DNA of 23,107 bases. It comes from a virus. A program made the position numbers and the translations under genes. The notes under the pieces are model-generated. The model did no database searches and was not told where the DNA came from. It saw nothing but the letters and a program-made list of their open reading frames with translations. Shown here one piece after another: positions 697 to 23,003 of this stretch (its first letter is position 1; every line of letters begins with the position of its first letter). Where the stretch lies: positions 1 through 23,107 of IMG/VR virus record IMGVR_UViG_3300032092_000272. One strand, written 5' to 3'.

Positions 697-1373
697 TATT
701 CAATTCTACCACCTTTAGATACCCAGTCATAGCCAACTTTAAATCCTAGTGATTTTCCTTGCTTTGAACCTGCCGCAAAATTGTTTTTATAGGTTCTTAT
801 ATCTTTAAAATGTTCTGCTATTCCACTGGATATCAAGAAAGACTGTGTAAAATAATTGTTAAAGAAATCTTTTAGTGTGTTTTCAAAACCCCCTTGTGTG
901 GCTGAACCTCCTGGATTTTCTACGACAACTGGTTTTTTTGTAAACACCTGCTCTTCATTGTCATTAAAAGACAGCACCCCTCCCTGTTTTGGTCTTATTG
1001 TTATAGGAGAACCATTCTCCATAATTGTTGCCTTATTGTAAAATGGCACCGTTGACCCTTTAGAATAAGAGTTTGATTGAGAAAATTCGTAACTAAAAGA
1101 TATTACGCTATCGTTATTTACTATGTAGTCTAAATCAAACAGTCTTGCATTTGGGCTTCCTGTTTCATACCATTCGTAAACATGATGAAGTATTTCTGGG
1201 TTTACCCTAGCGTTAGAGTCTATAAAGTTTTTAAGAGATTCTATTACAGTCTCTCCTAAATTGTTTAGAAACTTACCCTGTGCTTCTTCTGCACCCTCCA
1301 AAAATCCAATAGAATACTTTGCAATATTATTTAACTTTTCAACCAAAGAATCTGATTCAAACTTGACTATCAC
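696..1373 (-). CDS. Probable neck / minor tail protein, HK97 gp10-like
   Basis: A 225-aa soluble protein, started by GTG at 1373, which overlaps the previous stop as GTGA. There is no early in-frame ATG to replace it. The N-terminal third looks helical (residues 1-60), as in HK97 gp10-like proteins. It sits between a head-closure-like protein and a tail-terminator-like protein, the usual gp10 position. The C-terminal part ends in a Gly/Lys-rich stretch (about residues 200-225). Function is inferred from order and size; no diagnostic motif was recognised. It ends with TAATG coupling to the next gene. Confidence 0.5.
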   Translation of the reverse strand: MIVKFESDSLVEKLNNIAKYSIGFLEGAEEAQGKFLNNLGETVIESLKNFIDSNARVNPEILHHVYEWYETGSPNARLFDLDYIVNNDSVISFSYEFSQSNSYSKGSTVPFYNKATIMENGSPITIRPKQGGVLSFNDNEEQVFTKKPVVVENPGGSATQGGFENTLKDFFNNYFTQSFLISSGIAEHFKDIRTYKNNFAAGSKQGKSLGFKVGYDWVSKGGRIE

Positions 1374-5927: not shown

Positions 5928-5936
5928 ATTATACCA
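5928..5936 (-). promoter_or_regulatory. Distal extended -10 promoter before the protease gene
   Basis: TGGTATAAT on the minus strand, starting four bases after the portal stop codon. It would give a leader of about 40 bases with no Shine-Dalgarno close to the ATG at 5882. Together with the TATAAT at 5890-5895 it forms a tandem promoter pair in a 58-base gap. Confidence 0.6.
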
Positions 5937-5940
5937 CTTT

Positions 5941-7941: not shown

Positions 7942-7950
7942 AGTATACCA
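7942..7950 (-). promoter_or_regulatory. Extended -10 for the leaderless pre-portal/portal unit
   Basis: TGGTATACT on the minus strand, 7 bases from the ATG at 7934 and only 2 bases beyond the stop of the 1105-aa gene. No clear -35. The promoter occupies nearly the whole 18-base gap between the two genes. Confidence 0.7.
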
Positions 7951-7952
7951 CA

Positions 7953-11277: not shown

Positions 11278-11286
11278 ATTCTACCA
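11278..11286 (-). promoter_or_regulatory. Extended -10 for the leaderless LamG gene
   Basis: TGGTAGAAT on the minus strand, exactly 7 bases before the ATG at 11270. It begins 9 bases after the terminator hairpin, so the two form one stop-restart module. Confidence 0.66.
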
Positions 11287-11295
11287 CATAAGAAA

Positions 11296-11331: not shown

Positions 11332-13371
11332 TTAGTTTTTATCTGGAATTTTGATTTCACAGTAATCGGTGGTGCAGTAGGCTTCGCCTTGTGCTTCCAG
11401 ATTGTCTACTCCATCATAGATAGCAGAAAAGTCAATCTTTGCTAGTCTACCGATGTAGTAGTCGTACTCATCTTCTGTAATTTCAGAATATGGCTGTTGT
11501 GGATAAACAGTGTTACCCATTGGCAAGAAGGATACAGCCTTTAACTGTCCTTCGTACATGTTTAGAACAGATGCAATGTGTTGTTTCTCAGTTGCTGTGT
11601 CAAACGATAGCGTTACTGAAACACCGTTGTCTGACCAGTACTTCTGAGCAGTAGCAGCAAGTGCTGTCTTCTCAAATAGAGTTACATCCTTTTCTGCTCG
11701 CTTCTGTCCCGATGCAATTGGGAAGTATACCACTGAAGTATTTGCTGACACTAGGTCTGCCTCAATCCTATACCCTGCTGCTTTGAACAAGTGTAGCATT
11801 GGGTCTGTGTTTCCAAAACGAATTGCTCTTAGGTAGAACTTTCCGCCTGGACCCCAGTGAACACCAGGTGTTGCACCTGAAAGGATTGATACAGAACCAG
11901 ATGGCTTAACTGTGGTTACACGAATTGATTCACGAACACACATCCATTCTGAGTACTTGTTGTCATAGTAACGAATCTTGTTGTATCCTTCGTCCATCCA
12001 CTCACGAGTAGTAGGAAGACCATGCTCATCAGCGAATGATGCGATGCCAGTTAGAGATGTTCCGATTCTACGGTTTCTCTGCATGATACCGTTGGTCTGT
12101 TGCCAGTGAGTAGGGAGAAGTGTTACAGTCTTTCCATACAGGTAAGCGAACTTAAGAGTACGCAGGAAGTCTTCCTTTGACTCGTGACGGTTTAGGTGTA
12201 CTTCCACAAGGGTACATAGTTCATATGACTCTAGTGGCTGTTCTGCACACGGATTGAAGCCCATTACACGATAGTCCTTGCCATCTGCTGGGTCTGCTAG
12301 TCTACCAAAGTTACGAGCAACGTCAAGCCAAATAAATCCTGGCTCACCATTGTCAACAATGCGGTCTACATACTTTTCGTAGTCCATGCCAACAGATGCT
12401 TCGATAGAGTTGTTTGACATCCATGCCCAACCTGGGTTCTCTGGGTCGTATGAGTTACGCTCTGGGAATACATCTGCATTCTTTAGGTTTAGGAAGTCTT
12501 CGTCTCCATCTACGCCTAGTGCAAGGGTAGCGGAACGTCTGACGTTACCTGAAACAACACAAGTACCAATAAGGTTGATTAGGTCAACGATGGCACGAGC
12601 ATCTAGTGTCTCTCCTACACGCTGTCCTAGTACATGACTAATTCTTTCGTGTAGTTTGATTAGTGGTGCTGGTCCTGACGCTACCCCACCAAATCCCTTA
12701 ATAGGTGCACCTTCTGGACGAACCTCAGAATAGTCAAACTTCTGGATGTTCTGACCTGCACGAAGATATGAGTTGATTAGCAAGCGAGTTGCCTCTACCC
12801 AGCCTTCACGAGTATCAGGAATTACATAAGTAACTTCTGGTTCTGATGGTGCATAAATAGCAAAGTTCTTGTCTTTTCCAAGGGTATCAAAGCCAACTCC
12901 AATACCAAGCATAAGAGCATCCATAACCCAAGCAAACAACTGACCTGGGTCATTCTTGTCTAGGTCTTTTGTAGATACCATAGCACAATTCTGAAGAGCC
13001 GCTGAGTTACGCTTTTCCATTGTGAGTGGTGTACCAAATGTCCACATACCACGACCTGGAGGTGTCCATTTTAGATTGAACATACGGTCAAATGCTTCTT
13101 GTGCTGACTTCTGTGCCTTGTAGTCATTCCATGGGAGACGATTCTCCTTTGCATGGTTTTTCTGTACAGAGTACATACCTTCAATAACTCTGCGTACGAC
13201 TTCGTACCAGCGTTCTTTAGTTCCGTCATCTTTGACTCGTGAGTAGGTGCGAACAAAGGTAATTTCACCTAGTGCGTTGCCACCTGCATCCACGAATCCA
13301 AAGGGTGATTCCAATGATTTGTACTTTTCGACAAAATCTGTTGGGAGTGTAAATGAGAAAAATTCCGACAT
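11332..13371 (-). CDS. Class II (B12-dependent) ribonucleoside-triphosphate reductase, monomeric type
   Basis: A 679-aa enzyme that reduces ribonucleotides to deoxyribonucleotides using adenosylcobalamin to make a thiyl radical, supplying DNA precursors in infection. Residues matching Lactobacillus leichmannii RTPR are visible: C129 (its C119), N373-P-C375-A-E377 (N406, C408, E410), C386 (C419, same 11-residue spacing) and the C-terminal relay pair C666/C671 (C731/C736, same 5-residue spacing). So all radical and redox residues are intact. The family member from Lactobacillus is 739 aa, so this one is compact. No beta subunit or activase is needed. The ATG at 13371 has a ribosome site (GGAAAGGTGG, 13379-13388), its own promoter and a candidate operator, and the gene ends at a terminator: an independently controlled metabolic unit. 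Confidence 0.94.
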   Translation of the reverse strand: MSEFFSFTLPTDFVEKYKSLESPFGFVDAGGNALGEITFVRTYSRVKDDGTKERWYEVVRRVIEGMYSVQKNHAKENRLPWNDYKAQKSAQEAFDRMFNLKWTPPGRGMWTFGTPLTMEKRNSAALQNCAMVSTKDLDKNDPGQLFAWVMDALMLGIGVGFDTLGKDKNFAIYAPSEPEVTYVIPDTREGWVEATRLLINSYLRAGQNIQKFDYSEVRPEGAPIKGFGGVASGPAPLIKLHERISHVLGQRVGETLDARAIVDLINLIGTCVVSGNVRRSATLALGVDGDEDFLNLKNADVFPERNSYDPENPGWAWMSNNSIEASVGMDYEKYVDRIVDNGEPGFIWLDVARNFGRLADPADGKDYRVMGFNPCAEQPLESYELCTLVEVHLNRHESKEDFLRTLKFAYLYGKTVTLLPTHWQQTNGIMQRNRRIGTSLTGIASFADEHGLPTTREWMDEGYNKIRYYDNKYSEWMCVRESIRVTTVKPSGSVSILSGATPGVHWGPGGKFYLRAIRFGNTDPMLHLFKAAGYRIEADLVSANTSVVYFPIASGQKRAEKDVTLFEKTALAATAQKYWSDNGVSVTLSFDTATEKQHIASVLNMYEGQLKAVSFLPMGNTVYPQQPYSEITEDEYDYYIGRLAKIDFSAIYDGVDNLEAQGEAYCTTDYCEIKIPDKN

Positions 13372-13390: not shown

Positions 13391-13419
13391 AACTGTGATG
13401 TATAAAGTATACCACAGTT
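13391..13419. promoter_or_regulatory. Inverted repeat over the RNR promoter, candidate operator
   Basis: AACTGTG (13391-13397) and CACAGTT (13413-13419) are perfect 7-bp inverted arms 15 bases apart. Between them GTATA and TATAC (around a 3-base centre) form a second inverted repeat. The element covers the -10 and the expected start site, where a bound repressor would block initiation. It does not look like an NrdR box. Confidence 0.5.
13406..13414 (-). promoter_or_regulatory. Extended -10 promoter of the RNR gene
   Basis: TGGTATACT on the minus strand. Transcription would begin near 13399, giving a leader of about 28 bases with the GGAAAGGTGG ribosome site. The -35 is weak. Confidence 0.68.
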
Positions 13420-13465: not shown

Positions 13466-13711
13466 TTACTCAGTTACGTTAGCAACTGTTAGAGAGTCCA
13501 ATTCCTGCTTGTAAACAGAAATCATCTGGTCAAGCAGTGTGATGTTGTTATCAATTTCGGTTAGTGCCTTTTCATTTGGCTCTTCCTGTGCTTGTAGAAC
13601 CTTTTTGTTTAGAGTTAGTTGATATGCTTCAACTGCTAGTTGCTGTACTCTTTGTGTAACTACCGAAGTTCTTTCTTCCACGGTAAGTAATGAATTAAAA
13701 TCAATAGACAT
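13466..13711 (-). CDS. Small helical protein upstream of RNR, unknown
   Basis: An 81-aa acidic, largely helical protein, with heptad-like hydrophobic spacing around residues 20-75, so it may form a coiled coil. The ATG at 13711 has a ribosome site AAAGGTGG (8 bases upstream), almost identical to that of the RNR gene, and a promoter TGCTATAAT at 13745-13753. No membrane segment or known motif. It is followed by 94 bases with the RNR promoter and operator; no clear terminator separates them, so its mRNA may read through into RNR. Function not recognised. Confidence 0.72.
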   Translation of the reverse strand: MSIDFNSLLTVEERTSVVTQRVQQLAVEAYQLTLNKKVLQAQEEPNEKALTEIDNNITLLDQMISVYKQELDSLTVANVTE

Positions 13712-13744: not shown

Positions 13745-13753
13745 ATTATAGCA
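13745..13753 (-). promoter_or_regulatory. Extended -10 promoter of the 81-aa gene
   Basis: TGCTATAAT on the minus strand, 33 bases before the ATG. No -35 near consensus. It is back to back with the plus-strand promoter at 13761-13789, so the two polymerase footprints overlap. Confidence 0.66.
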
Positions 13754-13760
13754 CATGATA

Positions 13761-13789
13761 GTGACATTTAGGTTAATTCGTGGTATAAT
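13761..13789 (+). promoter_or_regulatory. Strong sigma70-type promoter of the NlpC/P60 gene
   Basis: GTGACA (-35, 13761-13766), a 17-base spacer, and TATAAT (13784-13789) with a TGG extension. This is the best promoter in the window, with both elements close to consensus. The start site would be near 13796. Confidence 0.8.
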
Positions 13790-13798
13790 TTATATACG

Positions 13799-13821
13799 AC
13801 ACCCTTCAAAAAGGTGTTTTT
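13799..13821 (+). promoter_or_regulatory. Leader hairpin with a T tract before the NlpC/P60 gene
   Basis: ACACC (13799-13803) pairs with GGTGT (13813-13817), with two more possible A-T pairs in the loop, then TTTTT (13817-13821). It lies at the very 5' end of the predicted mRNA, before the AAAGGAGG site (13827-13834). It could be a weak attenuator or a 5' stabilising hairpin. Confidence 0.45.
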
Positions 13822-13839
13822 CCATTAAAGGAGGAAAAT

Positions 13840-14385
13840 ATGAATAATTCAAAAATCAAAAAATTACTCGCTGTCGGAATACTAAGTTTTATGTTGTCTG
13901 GGTATCCAACCCCTATTGCTCAGGCAGACAAAGTAACCCAACAAACAATTAAAGAAAACGGCTTTGACTATCGAAGTCAGTTGATTAACCGTGCCAAATA
14001 TACTAAGAATACTGAAAGAATGAAGGTGACTGTCCAAAAATTAATGAGACGTGTTCACAAAACTTCTTATGTATTTTCTGGGTCTACCCCATATGGGTGG
14101 GACTGTTCTGGAATGGTAAGATGGACATACAAGCAGTTTGGCTTAGATGTTCCTCATTCTGCCAACAAACAAGCACACATTGGTAAAAGAGTTTCTGTTC
14201 CAAAATTAGGAGACATCGTTGTCTTTGCTTATAAAGGTTCGACAAACTTTTATCACTCTGGTATCTATATCGGCAAGGGTAAAATAGTAAATGCTCATTA
14301 TGAGGCTGGCACTACAATCATCCAACCATTAACAGATTACAAAAATAGTCAAATAAGATTTGTAAGGGTTGTCCCTACTCTTTAG
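13840..14385 (+). CDS. Secreted NlpC/P60 peptidoglycan hydrolase
   Basis: A 181-aa cell-wall enzyme. Residues 1-29 are a Sec signal peptide: KIKK, a hydrophobic core (residues 9-20) and a likely cleavage site AQA/DK after residue 29. Residues 60-181 are an NlpC/P60 domain with candidate catalytic Cys89 (GWDCSGMVRW), His139 (FYHSGIYIG) and His153 (NAHYEAG). Such enzymes cut peptide bonds of peptidoglycan stem peptides. It may be the phage endolysin exported by the host Sec system, or a cargo gene acting on the cell surface. It has a strong promoter, a leader hairpin and an AAAGGAGG ribosome site. It is the only plus-strand gene within the structural half, and its TAG overlaps the stop of the opposing fibre gene by three bases. 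Confidence 0.9.
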   Translation: MNNSKIKKLLAVGILSFMLSGYPTPIAQADKVTQQTIKENGFDYRSQLINRAKYTKNTERMKVTVQKLMRRVHKTSYVFSGSTPYGWDCSGMVRWTYKQFGLDVPHSANKQAHIGKRVSVPKLGDIVVFAYKGSTNFYHSGIYIGKGKIVNAHYEAGTTIIQPLTDYKNSQIRFVRVVPTL

Positions 14386-16607
14386 TTAATACCAAAAAGT
14401 TTTGCTGTAACTATCTGACCTGTGACTGTTCCATTAAATGTTAGAGTCATTGATGTTACTGCTGTTGTCCTATTTTTCCAAGCAAATGTTCCATAGCAGA
14501 TTGCATCTGAAATATAGTTATAGTAACCATCGTATCTTCCAATCTTAGAACCTGAAGTGGAAGCATAATTGTCTATATTAAAAGAACCAATAGCAGTATT
14601 TTCTGGATGATTCATAGGAACAAGAATGGCTACTTGGTCAAATCCGTTTGCATATGATGATGGTGCAGAGGTATTTGTTGATGCAGTTCCAGTGTATTGT
14701 TGGAAAGCATATGTATAGTTTGTTGCTGTATCTCCAGAAAATTGAATTGATAGCGTTGTAGCGGCAGTGTTTGCTGTTCCAACTGTATACTCAACTTCTA
14801 AACTTTTGTAAGTTTGTGGTATTGAAGAAAAAGTTATTGTCGATGCACCTGCTGTTGATGTTACTGTTTGAAGTAATGCTTTTCCAATGTTGGCAGTTCC
14901 AGTAACAGTAATAGTACTGGATGTGCTTCCACCAATGTTAATGTTATTATTGGCAGTTGTTGTTGAGTTAACTCCAATGTTAATTGTTTGACTATTACCA
15001 GTACCAGAAGCAGCACTACCAATATTTATTGTTCTTAATGTCGTAAAAGAACCAGTAGCCAAGTTCATAGTTGTAGCCTGACCACCTAGGCTTACCGTTG
15101 CAGCGGTTGTATTAAAGATAGATGCAGTTCCAGTAGACGATGTTGCAATTGTTGGGCTTGAGCCATTCATGTTCAAGGTTGCGGTACTTGCAAGGGTAAG
15201 TGTTGGCGAGTTGATTGTAAAAGTTCCACCAATAGAAGAACCCATGGTAATATTTGTTGTTGAGCCAGAGCCACCTCCAGTACCAATATTGAGTGTTTTT
15301 GTTGTTGCTGTTGCAGTTACACCCGAAGCAATATTATATGTTGAGGCACCTGTAGATGCAGTAAACATATTAACAGTCTGTGCTGCTGTGGCGGTATTTC
15401 CAATAGACAATGTTGTTGCTGCTCCACCGATATTTAGTGTAGTACTTCCTGTATTAAATACATCCATAGATGCACCGCCAAGAATTGATGTAGCAAAAGT
15501 TGGTGATGTAGTAAGAACTACGTTTCCAGAACCAGTTGATGAAGAAAAAGCGGTGCTTGTATTTGCAGAACCATTTCCAACGGAATATAAAAATCCTGGG
15601 GCAGTTGCAGTAACTCCAGCAAGACGAGCAAGAGTTCCAGGAGTACCAGTTGCAGATGCGTAAATAACATCACCGATAGTTGTTGTTGGATTAATGGCTA
15701 GAGTTCCTGCTACCGCTGGAATTGTTATTGCTGTTGTTCCAGCAGTTGCTGCTGGGGTAAGTGTAATTGTTCCAGATGTAGCACCTGGCATTGCAAGGCT
15801 AGAAATACCAGTCAAAGCCTGATTAGCAGATGAGATTTGAGCAGTAGTTGTTCCAATATAATAAGAACCAACACCAATAAACTGATTATAGGTTACAGTG
15901 TCTGTTCCAATTCGAATTGTTCCAGTTGGTAATCCACCAGTGGCACTTGATGTAGTGAGCATAAATGCCTCATTTGCATTTGTGCTACCATCGGAAACAT
16001 ATAAAAAGTCACCTTCGGCAAAGTCTCCAGCAAGTGTATTATTTGCATCTGTTGAACGAACAAGAACTACTTTTGTAGCACTTCCATTTGAAAAAGTTGG
16101 AGTTAATGTTGCTTGTCCACCAATTCCATCGGACTGTACGACATAAATGCCATTAGCAATGCTTGAGGTTGTTCCTGCGGCACCAAGAGTAGTTCCATTT
16201 TTAACAAGAACTCTATCTCCAAGGACAAGGTTTGCACCACTATCTATGGATTGAGCACCAGTTGCTGTAAAAGTAATATATGCATTAATCCCAGTTCCTG
16301 GAGTTGCAGAGTTGTCTGCAGAACCAGCGGAATATGTTCCAGTTATTGTTGTTGTTGTGGCATATTTAGCATTTTCGTGAACGTTAATTCCAGATTGTAG
16401 GGAACTAATTTGATTTTGTAGTTGTGCAAGCATTCCGTAAATACCACTAGAAGTTGATAGAGATGTTCGTGGGGTAGTTCCAGCATCCGTAGAACCATAA
16501 TATAAAAAGTTAATTGTGTTTTGAATATTGGCAACTTCAGAAAGTGCTGAAAGATAGGGTGGAGTAGTTACTCCAGAGATTGTTGGGTATGATAATGCGG
16601 TAGCCAT
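14382..16607 (-). CDS. Ser/Thr/Ala/Gly-rich tail fibre
   Basis: A 741-aa fibre. Residues 20-75 include a helical segment that may trimerise. Residues 105-215 contain the tail-fibre pattern VLGDRVLVKNGTT...NGIYVVQSDG. Residues 250-575 are low-complexity beta repeats with many NIG, LSIG and TTLNIG steps, typical of a beta-helical shaft. From about 576 a distinct C-terminal domain begins (TITFSSIPQTYKSLEVEY, then FSGDTATNY), a type seen at receptor-binding fibre tips. The ATG at 16607 lies 7 bases after a TGGTATAAT that sits inside the end of the upstream glycosyltransferase gene, with no Shine-Dalgarno: a leaderless start. The exposed Ser/Thr-rich shaft is an obvious target for the two glycosyltransferases next door. 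Its stop overlaps that of the convergent NlpC/P60 gene. Confidence 0.8.
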   Translation of the reverse strand: MATALSYPTISGVTTPPYLSALSEVANIQNTINFLYYGSTDAGTTPRTSLSTSSGIYGMLAQLQNQISSLQSGINVHENAKYATTTTITGTYSAGSADNSATPGTGINAYITFTATGAQSIDSGANLVLGDRVLVKNGTTLGAAGTTSSIANGIYVVQSDGIGGQATLTPTFSNGSATKVVLVRSTDANNTLAGDFAEGDFLYVSDGSTNANEAFMLTTSSATGGLPTGTIRIGTDTVTYNQFIGVGSYYIGTTTAQISSANQALTGISSLAMPGATSGTITLTPAATAGTTAITIPAVAGTLAINPTTTIGDVIYASATGTPGTLARLAGVTATAPGFLYSVGNGSANTSTAFSSSTGSGNVVLTTSPTFATSILGGASMDVFNTGSTTLNIGGAATTLSIGNTATAAQTVNMFTASTGASTYNIASGVTATATTKTLNIGTGGGSGSTTNITMGSSIGGTFTINSPTLTLASTATLNMNGSSPTIATSSTGTASIFNTTAATVSLGGQATTMNLATGSFTTLRTINIGSAASGTGNSQTINIGVNSTTTANNNINIGGSTSSTITVTGTANIGKALLQTVTSTAGASTITFSSIPQTYKSLEVEYTVGTANTAATTLSIQFSGDTATNYTYAFQQYTGTASTNTSAPSSYANGFDQVAILVPMNHPENTAIGSFNIDNYASTSGSKIGRYDGYYNYISDAICYGTFAWKNRTTAVTSMTLTFNGTVTGQIVTAKLFGIN

Positions 16608-16614
16608 AAACTAT

Positions 16615-16623
16615 ATTATACCA
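16615..16623 (-). promoter_or_regulatory. Extended -10 for the leaderless fibre gene, inside the GT gene end
   Basis: TGGTATAAT on the minus strand, exactly 7 bases before the ATG at 16607. The same bases encode the last codons and stop of the glycosyltransferase, so promoter and coding sequence overlap. Confidence 0.72.
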
Positions 16624-17656
16624 CGTCTGTCTCTTTAAATAAGTCAAAATTAGAACTAGCAATTCCATTGACATTAAGAGACATTTTGTCTTTTCTATTT
16701 TTAAACTTTAGATTGTGGTTGCAGACATAAAGCATGTTTTTTGGAAGATACCCCCAGGCTTGCTCAATGTAGTTGTGGTCAGTTGTTCTTTGAGTAATGG
16801 CAAGTATCTTTTTGCAATACTTTTTGGCATTTCTCCAGTCATTTTTCAGAAAGTAGTGTACAGCCAAACAAAATAGCGGTTCACGAGCGTACCAAACTTT
16901 AAGGGCAGAGATTAGGTGTTTCTTCTGCTTCTTAAGTTCTAGATTTGAAAGAATAATGTATGCTGTACAAATGTCGGTAGGAAGTCTTCCAGAGTCTTTC
17001 ATGGAGATATACTTTTTAAATTCTTTTATTGCCTGTTCTCTATCTTCATAAATTAAAGCCTTTGCATAATATAACTGATACCTGTGGCTATCTGGCTCTT
17101 CATCTAAAGCATCTTTAATTAAAGTGTCATACACCTTTCTGCTTTTATCATTATCTGGGTAGTGAAGAATATGGAAGTCTTCGCATTCTTCTAGAACATG
17201 GTTTTCGTTTCTATCTGTAACAATGTACTCGTGAACGATATACTTCCAACGGTATCCATGACGAGCATGAACTTTTGACTGAGAAGATATCATACCTGGA
17301 ATAGTCTGGTCCTTGTTGTTCCAACTGTGAGTATACTTATATAGAATCTGAGTACCAGTAGTTTTTTCTAGTGCCTCTCTCCACCCCTTATCCAATACCT
17401 CGTCAACATCTAGAGAAATACACATATCGATGTCATCTGGTAGGGCAGCCAGAGCAGCATTACGAGCATCATCAAAACGCCAAGGCTTAATAGAAATGTT
17501 AATTACATTAATACCAAGTTTCTTAGCAAGTTTAACAGTCTTATCTGTAGAGCCAGTGTCAGCAATTAGTAGATAGTCTGCGTCTTTGGCAGACTCATAC
17601 CAACGCTCTATAAACTTTTCTTCATTGAGAGCAATTGTGTATACCGCAATTTTCAT
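16616..17656 (-). CDS. Family 2 (GT-A) glycosyltransferase with a helical-repeat tail, copy 2
   Basis: A 346-aa enzyme that would transfer a sugar from a nucleotide-sugar donor. Residues 1-100 are a GT-A domain: VYTIALNEEKFIERW, the ADTGSTDKT loop (residues 32-40) and the DxD metal site D83-V-D85. A conserved HARHGYRWKYIVHE segment follows near residues 128-141. Residues 185-310 look like TPR-type helical repeats, often a protein-substrate platform. It is a clear paralogue of the adjacent upstream gene. ATGA overlap plus a ribosome site AAAGGA (7 bases upstream) link the two. Placed between two fibre genes, its likely target is a virion protein, though cell-surface or teichoic-acid modification cannot be excluded. 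The last 30 residues diverge from the paralogue. Confidence 0.85.
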   Translation of the reverse strand: MKIAVYTIALNEEKFIERWYESAKDADYLLIADTGSTDKTVKLAKKLGINVINISIKPWRFDDARNAALAALPDDIDMCISLDVDEVLDKGWREALEKTTGTQILYKYTHSWNNKDQTIPGMISSQSKVHARHGYRWKYIVHEYIVTDRNENHVLEECEDFHILHYPDNDKSRKVYDTLIKDALDEEPDSHRYQLYYAKALIYEDREQAIKEFKKYISMKDSGRLPTDICTAYIILSNLELKKQKKHLISALKVWYAREPLFCLAVHYFLKNDWRNAKKYCKKILAITQRTTDHNYIEQAWGYLPKNMLYVCNHNLKFKNRKDKMSLNVNGIASSNFDLFKETDVV

Positions 17657-18606
17657 TCTTCAATCCTTTGTTCATTATCATTATACCACTGTTCAATCTT
17701 TGCTTGTAGTTGTTCTACAGCACCATCCCAAACTCTAGGATTATTAAAAATATCAAAACTAGGCTTTGTGTGCCTTAAGGCTTGCTCTACATACATTCTA
17801 GCCAAGCCCCAGATTTCTTTTTCTACATAGTATTCTGCTAAGTAATAGTATGGCTCTCGTCTTTCTCTAGAATGCTTTAGGCATTCGGAAAGGTATTGAT
17901 AGCGTTTCTCTGGAACAATGTCAGCCAAAACTTTATAGACGTGAGACTTGTCTGTATCGCTAAATCCTGGAACCTTCATCATTTCTAGATACCAGGTTTC
18001 AGCCTCTTCGTATCGTTCAAGGGATACTAAAGCATCTGTGTAGTATTTGTAATATCGTGTGATTTCCCTAGTTTCATCTAAGGCAGCCTTGATGAGGTCA
18101 AGGTATTGACTGCGAGGTTTTTCTGTATCTGGCAAATGATAAACTTCAAGACCATAAGCAAACTCAATGTCTGGCTCAGTTCTGTCTTGAACAATACCTT
18201 CGTGCATAATAAACTTCCAGACATATCCGTGACGTGAATGAATCTTGTTATTGACCATACTGTGCTGCTTATGATAGTTGTCAAAGACATAGGTAATCTG
18301 ATTTCCAGTTGTCTTTTCTAGAATCTCTCTCCAGCCTTCCGAGATTGTCTCGTCCATGTCAAGAGATACGCAGAGGTCTATATCGTCTGGTAGTAACGAT
18401 AGGGCTGTGTTTCTGGCTACGTCAAATCTCCAAGGCTTGATTGAGATATTATAAACATTTATACCAAGTGACTTGGCAATTTCCACGGTACGGTCAGTAG
18501 AACCAGTATCCGCAATAAGGATATAGTCAGCGTCCTTTACTGAGTTGTACCAGCGTTCGACAAACTTTTCTTCATTAAGTGCAATTGTATAAACTGCGAT
18601 TTTCAT
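17653..18606 (-). CDS. Family 2 (GT-A) glycosyltransferase with a helical-repeat tail, copy 1
   Basis: A 317-aa paralogue of the next gene; over the first 100 residues most positions are identical. Visible features: VYTIALNEEKFVERW, ADTGSTDRT (32-40), DxD at D83-M-D85, the shared HSRHGYVWKFIMHE segment (123-136), then TPR-like helices (about 185-300) with alternating Tyr/Ala/Leu positions. No membrane segment or signal, so it acts in the cytoplasm, where virion proteins are made. The ATG at 18606 has AAAGGA 9 bases upstream and a promoter TGCTATAAT at 18633-18641. It ends in an ATGA overlap with copy 2. Having two kept copies suggests two acceptors or a two-sugar chain. Confidence 0.86.
   Translation of the reverse strand: MKIAVYTIALNEEKFVERWYNSVKDADYILIADTGSTDRTVEIAKSLGINVYNISIKPWRFDVARNTALSLLPDDIDLCVSLDMDETISEGWREILEKTTGNQITYVFDNYHKQHSMVNNKIHSRHGYVWKFIMHEGIVQDRTEPDIEFAYGLEVYHLPDTEKPRSQYLDLIKAALDETREITRYYKYYTDALVSLERYEEAETWYLEMMKVPGFSDTDKSHVYKVLADIVPEKRYQYLSECLKHSRERREPYYYLAEYYVEKEIWGLARMYVEQALRHTKPSFDIFNNPRVWDGAVEQLQAKIEQWYNDNEQRIEE
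17680..17688 (-). promoter_or_regulatory. Extended -10 inside the end of GT copy 1
   Basis: TGGTATAAT on the minus strand, 23 bases before the ATG of GT copy 2, encoding Trp-Tyr-Asn of copy 1. It could give copy 2 a separate transcript. Because it is also coding sequence, chance is possible, but the match is full. Confidence 0.5.
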
Positions 18607-22309: not shown

Positions 22310-22603
22310 TCAAAGTTCGGTGTTTTCTGATTTCTTATTTTTGTTAGTCTTGACACCTTCGTTTATAAGAACGTTATAAAGGTTGTCAATTTTTTCTTCT
22401 AGTTTGTGAGACTTTTCTTCTAGTCTGTTAACCTGGTCTTTCATCGATGACCCTCCGTTAGGCTTGAGTTCTGATAAATTGTTTTTAAGTTCGGTTGATA
22501 GGACTTTCATTTCTGCGGTAATGAACCATCTGATTCCGCCAACAGTAATAGCGATGATAGACAATGCAGTTAATATTAAACCTGCCCAATCTGATATAGT
22601 CAT
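22310..22603 (-). CDS. Small one-TM protein with a coiled-coil tail (holin-like or membrane anchor)
   Basis: A 97-aa protein. Residues 6-28 are a hydrophobic membrane segment (WAGLILTALSIIAITVGGIRW), residues 33-50 a helix, then a turn LKPNGGSSMKDQ (50-61), then a charged coiled coil (62-85, RLEEKSHKLEEKI) and a Lys/Asn-rich end. Small proteins with one N-terminal TM and such a Pro-Asn-Gly-Gly-Ser-Ser turn are familiar in actinobacteriophages and are often called membrane or holin-like proteins; this is recollection. It could act in lysis with the NlpC/P60 enzyme, although the two genes are 8 kb apart. The ATG at 22603 lies 9 bases after TATAAT and has no Shine-Dalgarno; a GTG at 22621 is inside the promoter. 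Confidence 0.68.
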   Translation of the reverse strand: MTISDWAGLILTALSIIAITVGGIRWFITAEMKVLSTELKNNLSELKPNGGSSMKDQVNRLEEKSHKLEEKIDNLYNVLINEGVKTNKNKKSENTEL

Positions 22604-22612
22604 AATAAAATA

Positions 22613-22618
22613 ATTATA
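22613..22618 (-). promoter_or_regulatory. -10 element of the membrane-protein gene
   Basis: AGTGTATAAT on the minus strand, 9 bases before the ATG at 22603, so any leader would be only a few bases. No convincing -35. Confidence 0.6.
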
Positions 22619-22621
22619 CAC

Positions 22622-22785
22622 TATCTTTTGACTGTTTGCGGATTTTTAAAACGGTCGAAATAAGAGACACCAAACCCATACAAATGCCTGTATGCAACAA
22701 AGTTGCCAGATAGGGCAAATAAGGGTTTAAATGCCCCCTAGAGACCACAACACCCATATTTCCATACACACATACCCCTCAAATA
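22622..22785. other. Divergent intergenic regulatory region
   Basis: About 160 bases between the minus-strand structural module and the plus-strand genes, with no gene I can support. GCAAC/GTTGC (22694-22706) is a perfect 5-bp stem with a 3-base loop, followed by TAGGGCA (22711-22717) and TGCCC (22732-22736) as a second possible stem. These could be regulator sites or leader structures. Confidence 0.5.
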
Positions 22786-22794
22786 TGTTATACT
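22786..22794 (+). promoter_or_regulatory. Extended -10 promoter of the HTH gene
   Basis: TGTTATACT on the plus strand, 26 bases before the ATG at 22821. No clear -35. The predicted leader is about 20 bases and includes AAAGAGAGAG. Confidence 0.62.
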
Positions 22795-22820
22795 ATAAAT
22801 CTACCGAAAGAGAGAGCGAT

Positions 22821-23003
22821 ATGGACGAAAAAGTACCGTATGTCAAACACTACGAGTCAAAAGAATATCTTGAAGCATGCATAGCAGCCAAGATGAATTC
22901 AAAAGAAATAGCCAATCAGAGTAAAGTGTCATATAAACTTATTAACTATTGGCTGATAAAGCATGGATTGCTTCGCAATACCCCAGACGTTAGGCTACCC
23001 TAA
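22821..23003 (+). CDS. Small helix-turn-helix DNA-binding protein
   Basis: A 60-aa protein that is mostly one homeodomain-like HTH. Residues 14-27 form the first helix (KEYLEACIAAKMNS), SKEIANQSKVS the turn region and YKLINYWLIKHGL (33-45) the recognition helix. Such short HTH proteins are common in phage early regions and may be regulators. A longer reading from 22731 is possible but would run over the promoter and has no ribosome site; the ATG at 22821 has a purine-rich AAAGAGAGAG just upstream. It diverges from the structural genes and its stop overlaps the next ATG as TAATG. Regulation of the divergent promoters is a reasonable guess, not shown. Confidence 0.66.
   Translation: MDEKVPYVKHYESKEYLEACIAAKMNSKEIANQSKVSYKLINYWLIKHGLLRNTPDVRLP

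Follow-up and report, generated by a model that had tools for sequence, protein, structure and literature searches.

An inverted gene for a predicted exported NlpC/P60 peptidase, with its own conserved promoter and leader, in the structural module of an actinophage

What might a phage gain from a cell-wall enzyme that is predicted to be exported and is encoded against the direction of all the main genes around it? The question is raised by a 23,107-base linear fragment of a phage record (the window, meaning the whole stretch of DNA analysed), in which the main genes from 172 to 22621 all lie on the minus strand, save an NlpC/P60 gene at 13840-14385(+); an extra short plus-strand open reading frame occupies 22731-23003. 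A first-pass annotation had pointed to this inverted gene, with its Sec signal peptide, in the structural module, and the observation is real and conserved: the protein matches PF00877 at 1.6e-18 (residues 75-162; 67 bits versus a curated cut-off of 23), it carries a predicted signal, and its neighbours are on the minus strand.

The minus-strand genes encode, among others, a major head protein, head maturation protease, portal, ribonucleotide reductase, collagen-like fibre and two related glycosyltransferases. The ribonucleotide reductase gene (11332-13371(-)) lies within the structural module, and the glycosyltransferases form a tandem pair (16616-18606(-), PHROG 13126) with fibre genes on either side. 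A conserved 103-aa protein with a hydrophobic N-terminal stretch (22310-22621(-)) belongs with PHROG 9869/1009, of unknown function. The virus is a phage of actinobacteria. Its head protease is 39.5-41.6% identical to those of large Streptomyces phages (20 matches listed), and WhiB, which marks actinobacteria and their phages according to two reports (PMC10202952; PMC6802176), is encoded in all five large records; the window fragment has no WhiB. A tyrosine integrase was found in none of six records.

The protein has 181 aa from an ATG start, and is laid out as an export signal, a short linker and an NlpC/P60 (C40-type) domain that is recognized by Pfam, profile and fold matches. In a profile search of the PDB, MepS was the best match (2.9e-17), followed by Spr and RipC. 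A structure model built from 27 relatives is papain-like and matches NlpC/P60 structures with Z up to 18.0; its pLDDT is 80-97 in blocks from residue 61 and below 50 for residues 7-42. A Cys-His-polar catalytic set is present, with roles assigned by alignment to MepS: Cys89 (codon 14104-14106(+)), His139 (14254-14256(+)) and Asn151 (14290-14292(+)), the last being the probable third triad residue by its position. None of the three varies among the 27 aligned relatives, so selection probably maintains an active enzyme. We infer that the product is an NlpC/P60 peptidoglycan endopeptidase, both in its activity and in the bond that it would cut.

The N-terminus, MNNSKIKKLLAVGILSFMLSGYPTPIAQA followed by D, looks like a Sec signal both to the eye and in its hydropathy (13840-13926(+)), with the cut predicted between AQA and D and a hydropathy of 2.5 across the best 10 residues, as calculated for locus L002, which is identical to the window. 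A lipobox is found in 76 of the 86 relatives with a readable N-terminus (three further loci are cut). The ten without it comprise L041, L042 and L002-L009; these last eight are the loci closest to the window and have Tyr in place of the Cys. In the window the Tyr22 codon (TAT, 13903-13905(+)) stands at the position of the lipobox Cys, giving SGY, and by the lipobox criterion this copy is not a lipoprotein.

The 89 loci studied as relatives derive from a protein search that gave 41 loci in viral contigs and a profile search that gave 259 candidates, of which the best 80 were kept (32 of these 80 on contigs already in the set). Annotated phages yielded 115 matching records, all below 60% identity and at most 37.9% identical among the 40 matches listed. 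A scan of cellular genomes, which requires exact short patterns and favours close relatives, returned five related loci, and its best identity of 42% does not support a recent acquisition from a host.

In a tree of the NlpC domain, which is short (119 columns, with 29 of 66 inner branches open), a branch with support 99 sets the window and 34 loci apart from the rest. In this group, 32 loci have opposite-strand genes on both sides and two more lack one flank; the recurrent gene order is ribonucleotide reductase(-), an 81-aa gene(-), NlpC(+) and glycosyltransferase(-). The 81-aa gene (13466-13711(-)) is a divergent, conserved partner of the NlpC gene. A separate scan used ribonucleotide reductase as its anchor and retained 80 loci; where the site was covered and reductase identity was at least 89%, nine of nine had the inverted gene, and below 89% it was present in 3 and absent in 24. 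At the same inverted site, loci L246, L247, L249, L258, L261, L273, L276, L286 and L287 have a copy that is only 38-43% identical. The inverted site seems to stay filled while the allele changes. Six records picked by their head protein (~65-72% identity) lack the NlpC gene. In some sister-group loci (L031, L242) the gene that converges directly on NlpC is a ribonucleotide reductase homologue.

The gene has its own promoter at 13761-13789(+), consisting of a weak, poorly conserved -35 (13761-13766) and an extended -10, GTGGTATAAT (13780-13789). Read as GTGACA-N17-TATAAT with TG ahead of the -10, it scores 11 of 12. One other site, 9371(+), within a minus-strand gene, has the same score, and the first 20 kb hold 60 promoter-like sites versus 56.3 +/- 7.4 by chance, so the consensus match by itself proves little. 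The proof of a promoter, as far as sequence can give it, is the conservation of TGGTATAAT, which all 21 leaders share without change, in contrast to the variable -35. The site had been described earlier as the best promoter of the window; it does have this conserved element, and it shares the top score with 9371(+).

Downstream of the promoter, a start-site-proximal hairpin (ACACC/GGTGT, 13799-13817(+)) runs into a T5 tract (13817-13821), which together resemble a terminator, and a Shine-Dalgarno sequence GGAGG follows at 13830-13834(+). The hairpin and T-tract leader and the strong ribosome site noted at first pass are thus both present, and the leader is conserved. From the -10 to the start codon, mean pairwise identity is 0.932 (20 leaders, 190 pairs), versus 0.787 for the domain DNA and 0.604 for third codon positions of the domain in the same pairs. 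Divergent alleles have ACTTCC/GGAAGT and then T5 at the equivalent position, and L261, with a variant -10, has the same kind of hairpin. Among 159 distinct 60-mers starting with TGGTATAAT in the loci scanned, the hairpin and T-run occur in 26 of 26 that precede an NlpC gene versus 0 of 133 others. The predicted energy is modest (-5.3 to -8.8 kcal/mol), and the window leader folds no more stably than shuffled sequences (z -0.91). Rfam gave no match for the window leader and none credible for that of L246. With the promoter upstream of it and the ribosome site downstream, the hairpin could be either a terminator that transcription must pass or a structure in the 5' part of the mRNA. In divergent alleles (L246:4118-4292(-), L273, L286, L287, L247, L258) a further conserved leader of ~100 nt lies 3' of the hairpin and T5, and a predicted hairpin also encloses the start codon.

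A second RNA element precedes the gene in the sister group, where a highly conserved stretch of ~65 nt leads up to the start codon and would fold into a small hairpin and a stem closing over the ribosome site. Examples of this structured leader lie directly upstream of a lipoprotein NlpC gene (L211:3961-4028, L209:4017-4080). An RNA model built from 14 leaders gave 46 matches in the loci at E up to 1, before an NlpC start save for one stray (L229:7543, E 0.65) and including a weak L036-L040 group (E 0.057 to 0.76); in a further set of 36 sources the only match was in L139, and this is the L033 site again, both loci being from one record. In the model-fitted alignment (29 distinct rows), which leans to its structure, 98.5% of cells pair and two-sided changes occur in 4 of 12 pairs versus 0.9 in shuffles, a count biased in the same direction; a MAFFT alignment of these leaders has no two-sided change. 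The element is absent in some sister loci (e.g., L031, L242 and L041), and Rfam gave no credible match for the leaders of L211 and L037. In cellular genomes, under stricter filters, the model matched 0 of 3 and then 1 of 396 actinobacterial genomes, and this single match is within an open reading frame, presumably of a HIT-family gene, so it is probably due to chance. Conservation indicates that the NlpC gene family is under leader control in at least two unrelated forms.

The timing of expression bears on what the enzyme could do. The extended -10 GTGGTAKAMT occurs at nine sites in the window versus 0.23 expected; the minus strand has eight of them, of which seven lie at most 50 nt upstream of a gene start. 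Elements of this class lie 35 nt upstream of the ribonucleotide reductase gene (GTGGTATACT, 13406-13415(-)), 46 nt upstream of the head maturation protease start as taken from relatives (5928-5937(-)) and 8 nt upstream of gene 14382-16607(-) (16615-16624(-)). The divergent 81-aa gene has its own -10-like element, GTGCTATAAT (13745-13754(-)). Four extended -10 motifs (703-712(-), 7942-7951(-), 11278-11287(-) and 16615-16624(-)) are 2-8 nt upstream of start codons, a spacing that we take to be expected for leaderless transcripts of actinobacteria. In two relatives, G001 and G005, GTGGTAKAMT heads an operon of a coiled-coil/PA14 protein and a holin-like gene. Expression outside the late programme, as had been proposed, is not supported, given a promoter motif common to structural genes and to this holin operon. 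The motif is also found upstream of a few other genes, and thus marks a type of promoter rather than a proven time class. The first gene of the holin operon, which encodes the exported coiled-coil/PA14 protein, seems to start at ATT (L131:10028-11968 in G005, and the matching site in G001); in G005 there is no ATG, GTG or TTG between the stop codon and the signal peptide.

Whether the NlpC enzyme is the endolysin itself can be judged from the relatives. G005 has 91,335 bases, and given that its ends flank the NlpC site it is probably close to a whole genome. Pfam scans of 33 + 66 sequences from its 136 open frames, with the tape measure protein as two pieces, found one NlpC/P60 and one Peptidase_M23 among the families listed (25 of 26 and 25 of 29). 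The M23 gene is ~37 kb from the NlpC gene and close to a holin-like gene; a small two-helix membrane protein gene and two tRNA genes precede it, its product has no export signal by eye, and that product had no match in annotated phages. We call the membrane protein holin-like because of its shape, its place and a weak PHROG holin match of the L209 homologue (0.0038); its best PHROG is annotated as 'nuclease', which we doubt. A search for another endolysin, suggested at first pass, was thus successful, with M23 in 10 of the 11 NlpC-bearing records of at least 70 kb (G020 is the exception). Neither Amidase_2 nor GH25 was found in any of 17 records, and CHAP exceeded its cut-off in three of the 17 (G015 and G016, both without NlpC, and G004); weaker CHAP matches mostly fall on the NlpC gene itself. 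The M23 genes of the relatives rule out the NlpC enzyme as the sole endolysin. Nor does it look like a canonical holin-cassette endolysin, given its export signal and the separate M23 gene. The earlier view that this is unlike a standard lysis cassette agrees with G005, where the NlpC gene is inverted and the M23 and holin-like genes are far off.

In other relatives the distance is short. Of the 89 loci, 24 have a holin-like or M23 homologue within 5 kb of the NlpC gene (same strand in 20, divergent in 4), and the usual order in the sister group is NlpC, two small genes, holin-like, coiled-coil/PA14 exported protein, small membrane protein and M23. The inverted loci have no holin-like or M23 neighbour in the flanks covered. 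Where at least 4 kb is available on both sides, 5 of 27 loci have lysis neighbours and 22 have none.

The best reading, to which we give an even chance, is an accessory enzyme that aids lysis from the membrane side and is tightly controlled at the RNA level. In this scenario, the host Sec machinery would export the endopeptidase during infection. As a lipoprotein, the enzyme of most relatives would stay attached to the outer surface of the cytoplasmic membrane; that of the window's clade, which has lost the anchor Cys, would probably be cut free into the wall. Working from the wall side, the enzyme would need no holin hole, and may loosen or help break the sacculus jointly with the holin and the cytosolic M23 endolysin. 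The leader would hold synthesis back, with the extended -10 start followed at once by the hairpin and U-tract, which may be an attenuator or a 5' structure that gates translation.

We favour lysis mainly because of the holin-like and M23 neighbours in the sister group (24 of 89 loci overall). The domain and fold matches, the invariant triad, the lipobox in 76 of 86 and M23 in 10 of 11 also support it, as do the promoter shared with structural genes and the holin operon, the leader identity of 0.932, the hairpin (26 of 26 versus 0 of 133) and, in Streptomyces phage GiJojo, a signal-bearing NlpC/P60 protein encoded ~2 kb before an amidase endolysin. The reading is weakened by the inverted gene of the window's lineage, far from the lysis cassette, by lysis neighbours confined to part of the sister group (5 of 27 versus 22) and by a leader that folds no better than shuffles. 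Given that an endolysin is already present, the NlpC enzyme may be dispensable for lysis.

Among the alternatives, superinfection exclusion or wall masking ranks next, and is rather unlikely. Here the exported, mostly anchored enzyme would alter the wall or block further phages, by analogy with Ltp of phage TP-J34, which it resembles in place and not in fold; to our knowledge, Ltp has no enzymatic domain. The lipobox in 76 of 86 relatives and the fibre and glycosyltransferase genes that adjoin the window gene are consistent with exclusion. Ltp is reported to be a phage lipoprotein on the outer membrane face that blocks DNA injection (PMC3952083). However, a steric blocker would not need invariant catalytic residues, the window's clade has lost the lipid anchor, the promoter is of a class that is not specific to early genes, and the sister group has lysis neighbours. 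Besides, the lack of an integrase in six of six records suggests that there is probably no lysogen to protect.

Somewhat less probable again is remodelling, in which the enzyme would keep the wall of the infected cell growing or plastic, or release wall peptides, with no role in final lysis. The closest solved relatives are the host endopeptidases MepS, RipC and RipB, which serve growth and division, but no recycling or wall-synthesis gene was seen among the neighbours, the promoter motif is common to virion genes, and the lysis neighbours of the sister group count against it as well. A moron, the self-contained accessory gene expressed outside the late programme that was preferred at first pass, is improbable: the gene has its own promoter, opposite strand and intact neighbours, but it is fixed in its lineage (nine of nine loci at reductase identity of at least 89%) instead of sporadic, its GC resembles the flanks, no plus-strand terminator is listed at its end in a scan of the window (its stop codon overlaps that of the convergent gene 14382-16607(-)), its promoter class is common to neighbouring genes, none of six records has an integrase, and allele replacement suggests a site kept filled.

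If the accessory lysis enzyme is the correct reading, its relatives may form a widespread phage-specific family. We tentatively suggest, with well below even confidence, that exported, usually lipid-anchored NlpC/P60 enzymes are a second, membrane-side lysis arm of virulent actinophages, gated by lineage-specific RNA leaders (the start-site hairpin and U-tract in the window's lineage, the ~65-nt element pairing across the ribosome site in the sister group). Lysis of Gram-positive hosts is usually told as the work of a holin and a cytosolic endolysin. With an exported family beside this pair, phages would have a separately controlled arm on the wall side, and the holin would share the timing of lysis with an RNA switch that acts on an exported enzyme. 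The leader also provides a candidate phage RNA element for simple testing.

The listings of the literature searched describe no phage NlpC/P60 lipoprotein, and the nearest comparisons are with host enzymes and other phage proteins. MepS/Spr, a lipoprotein endopeptidase of E. coli, is like the window enzyme in profile (2.9e-17) and fold (Z about 16), and its lipoprotein state is matched by most phage relatives, whereas the window copy lacks the lipobox Cys. MepS/Spr is a host enzyme, and the third position is His in the MepS chain, where we take it to be catalytic, and Asn in the phage protein. The actinobacterial RipB, RipC and RipA are alike in fold (RipB, Z 17.4) and profile (RipC chain 8idc, 1e-15), but the aligned Rip chains are longer, and the phage protein is one small domain after signal and linker.

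Among phage proteins, GiJojo gp173 ('peptidase') is likewise a signal-bearing NlpC/P60 protein of an actinophage, encoded near its endolysin; it is 25.6% identical to the window enzyme, lacks a lipobox and is on the same strand as its neighbours. In GiJojo, two exported wall enzymes adjoin (L123:6019-7102), NlpC/P60 and a LysM-bearing one that looks Rpf-like to us, ~2 kb before the amidase endolysin. NlpC/P60 tail lysins (PHROG 329, 400 and 1015) have the same catalytic domain but are parts of large tail proteins, whereas the window enzyme is free-standing, with a predicted export signal that argues against a virion tail lysin. Exclusion lipoproteins of the Ltp type share the predicted location of the lipobox relatives, on the outer face of the membrane (PMC3952083), whereas the phages that carry Ltp are temperate. 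The last comparison is with other lytic enzymes that depend on export. Secreted and signal-arrest-release endolysins reach the wall via Sec and not through a holin hole, and serve as the main endolysin of their phages, whereas relatives of the phage studied here carry a separate M23 endolysin.
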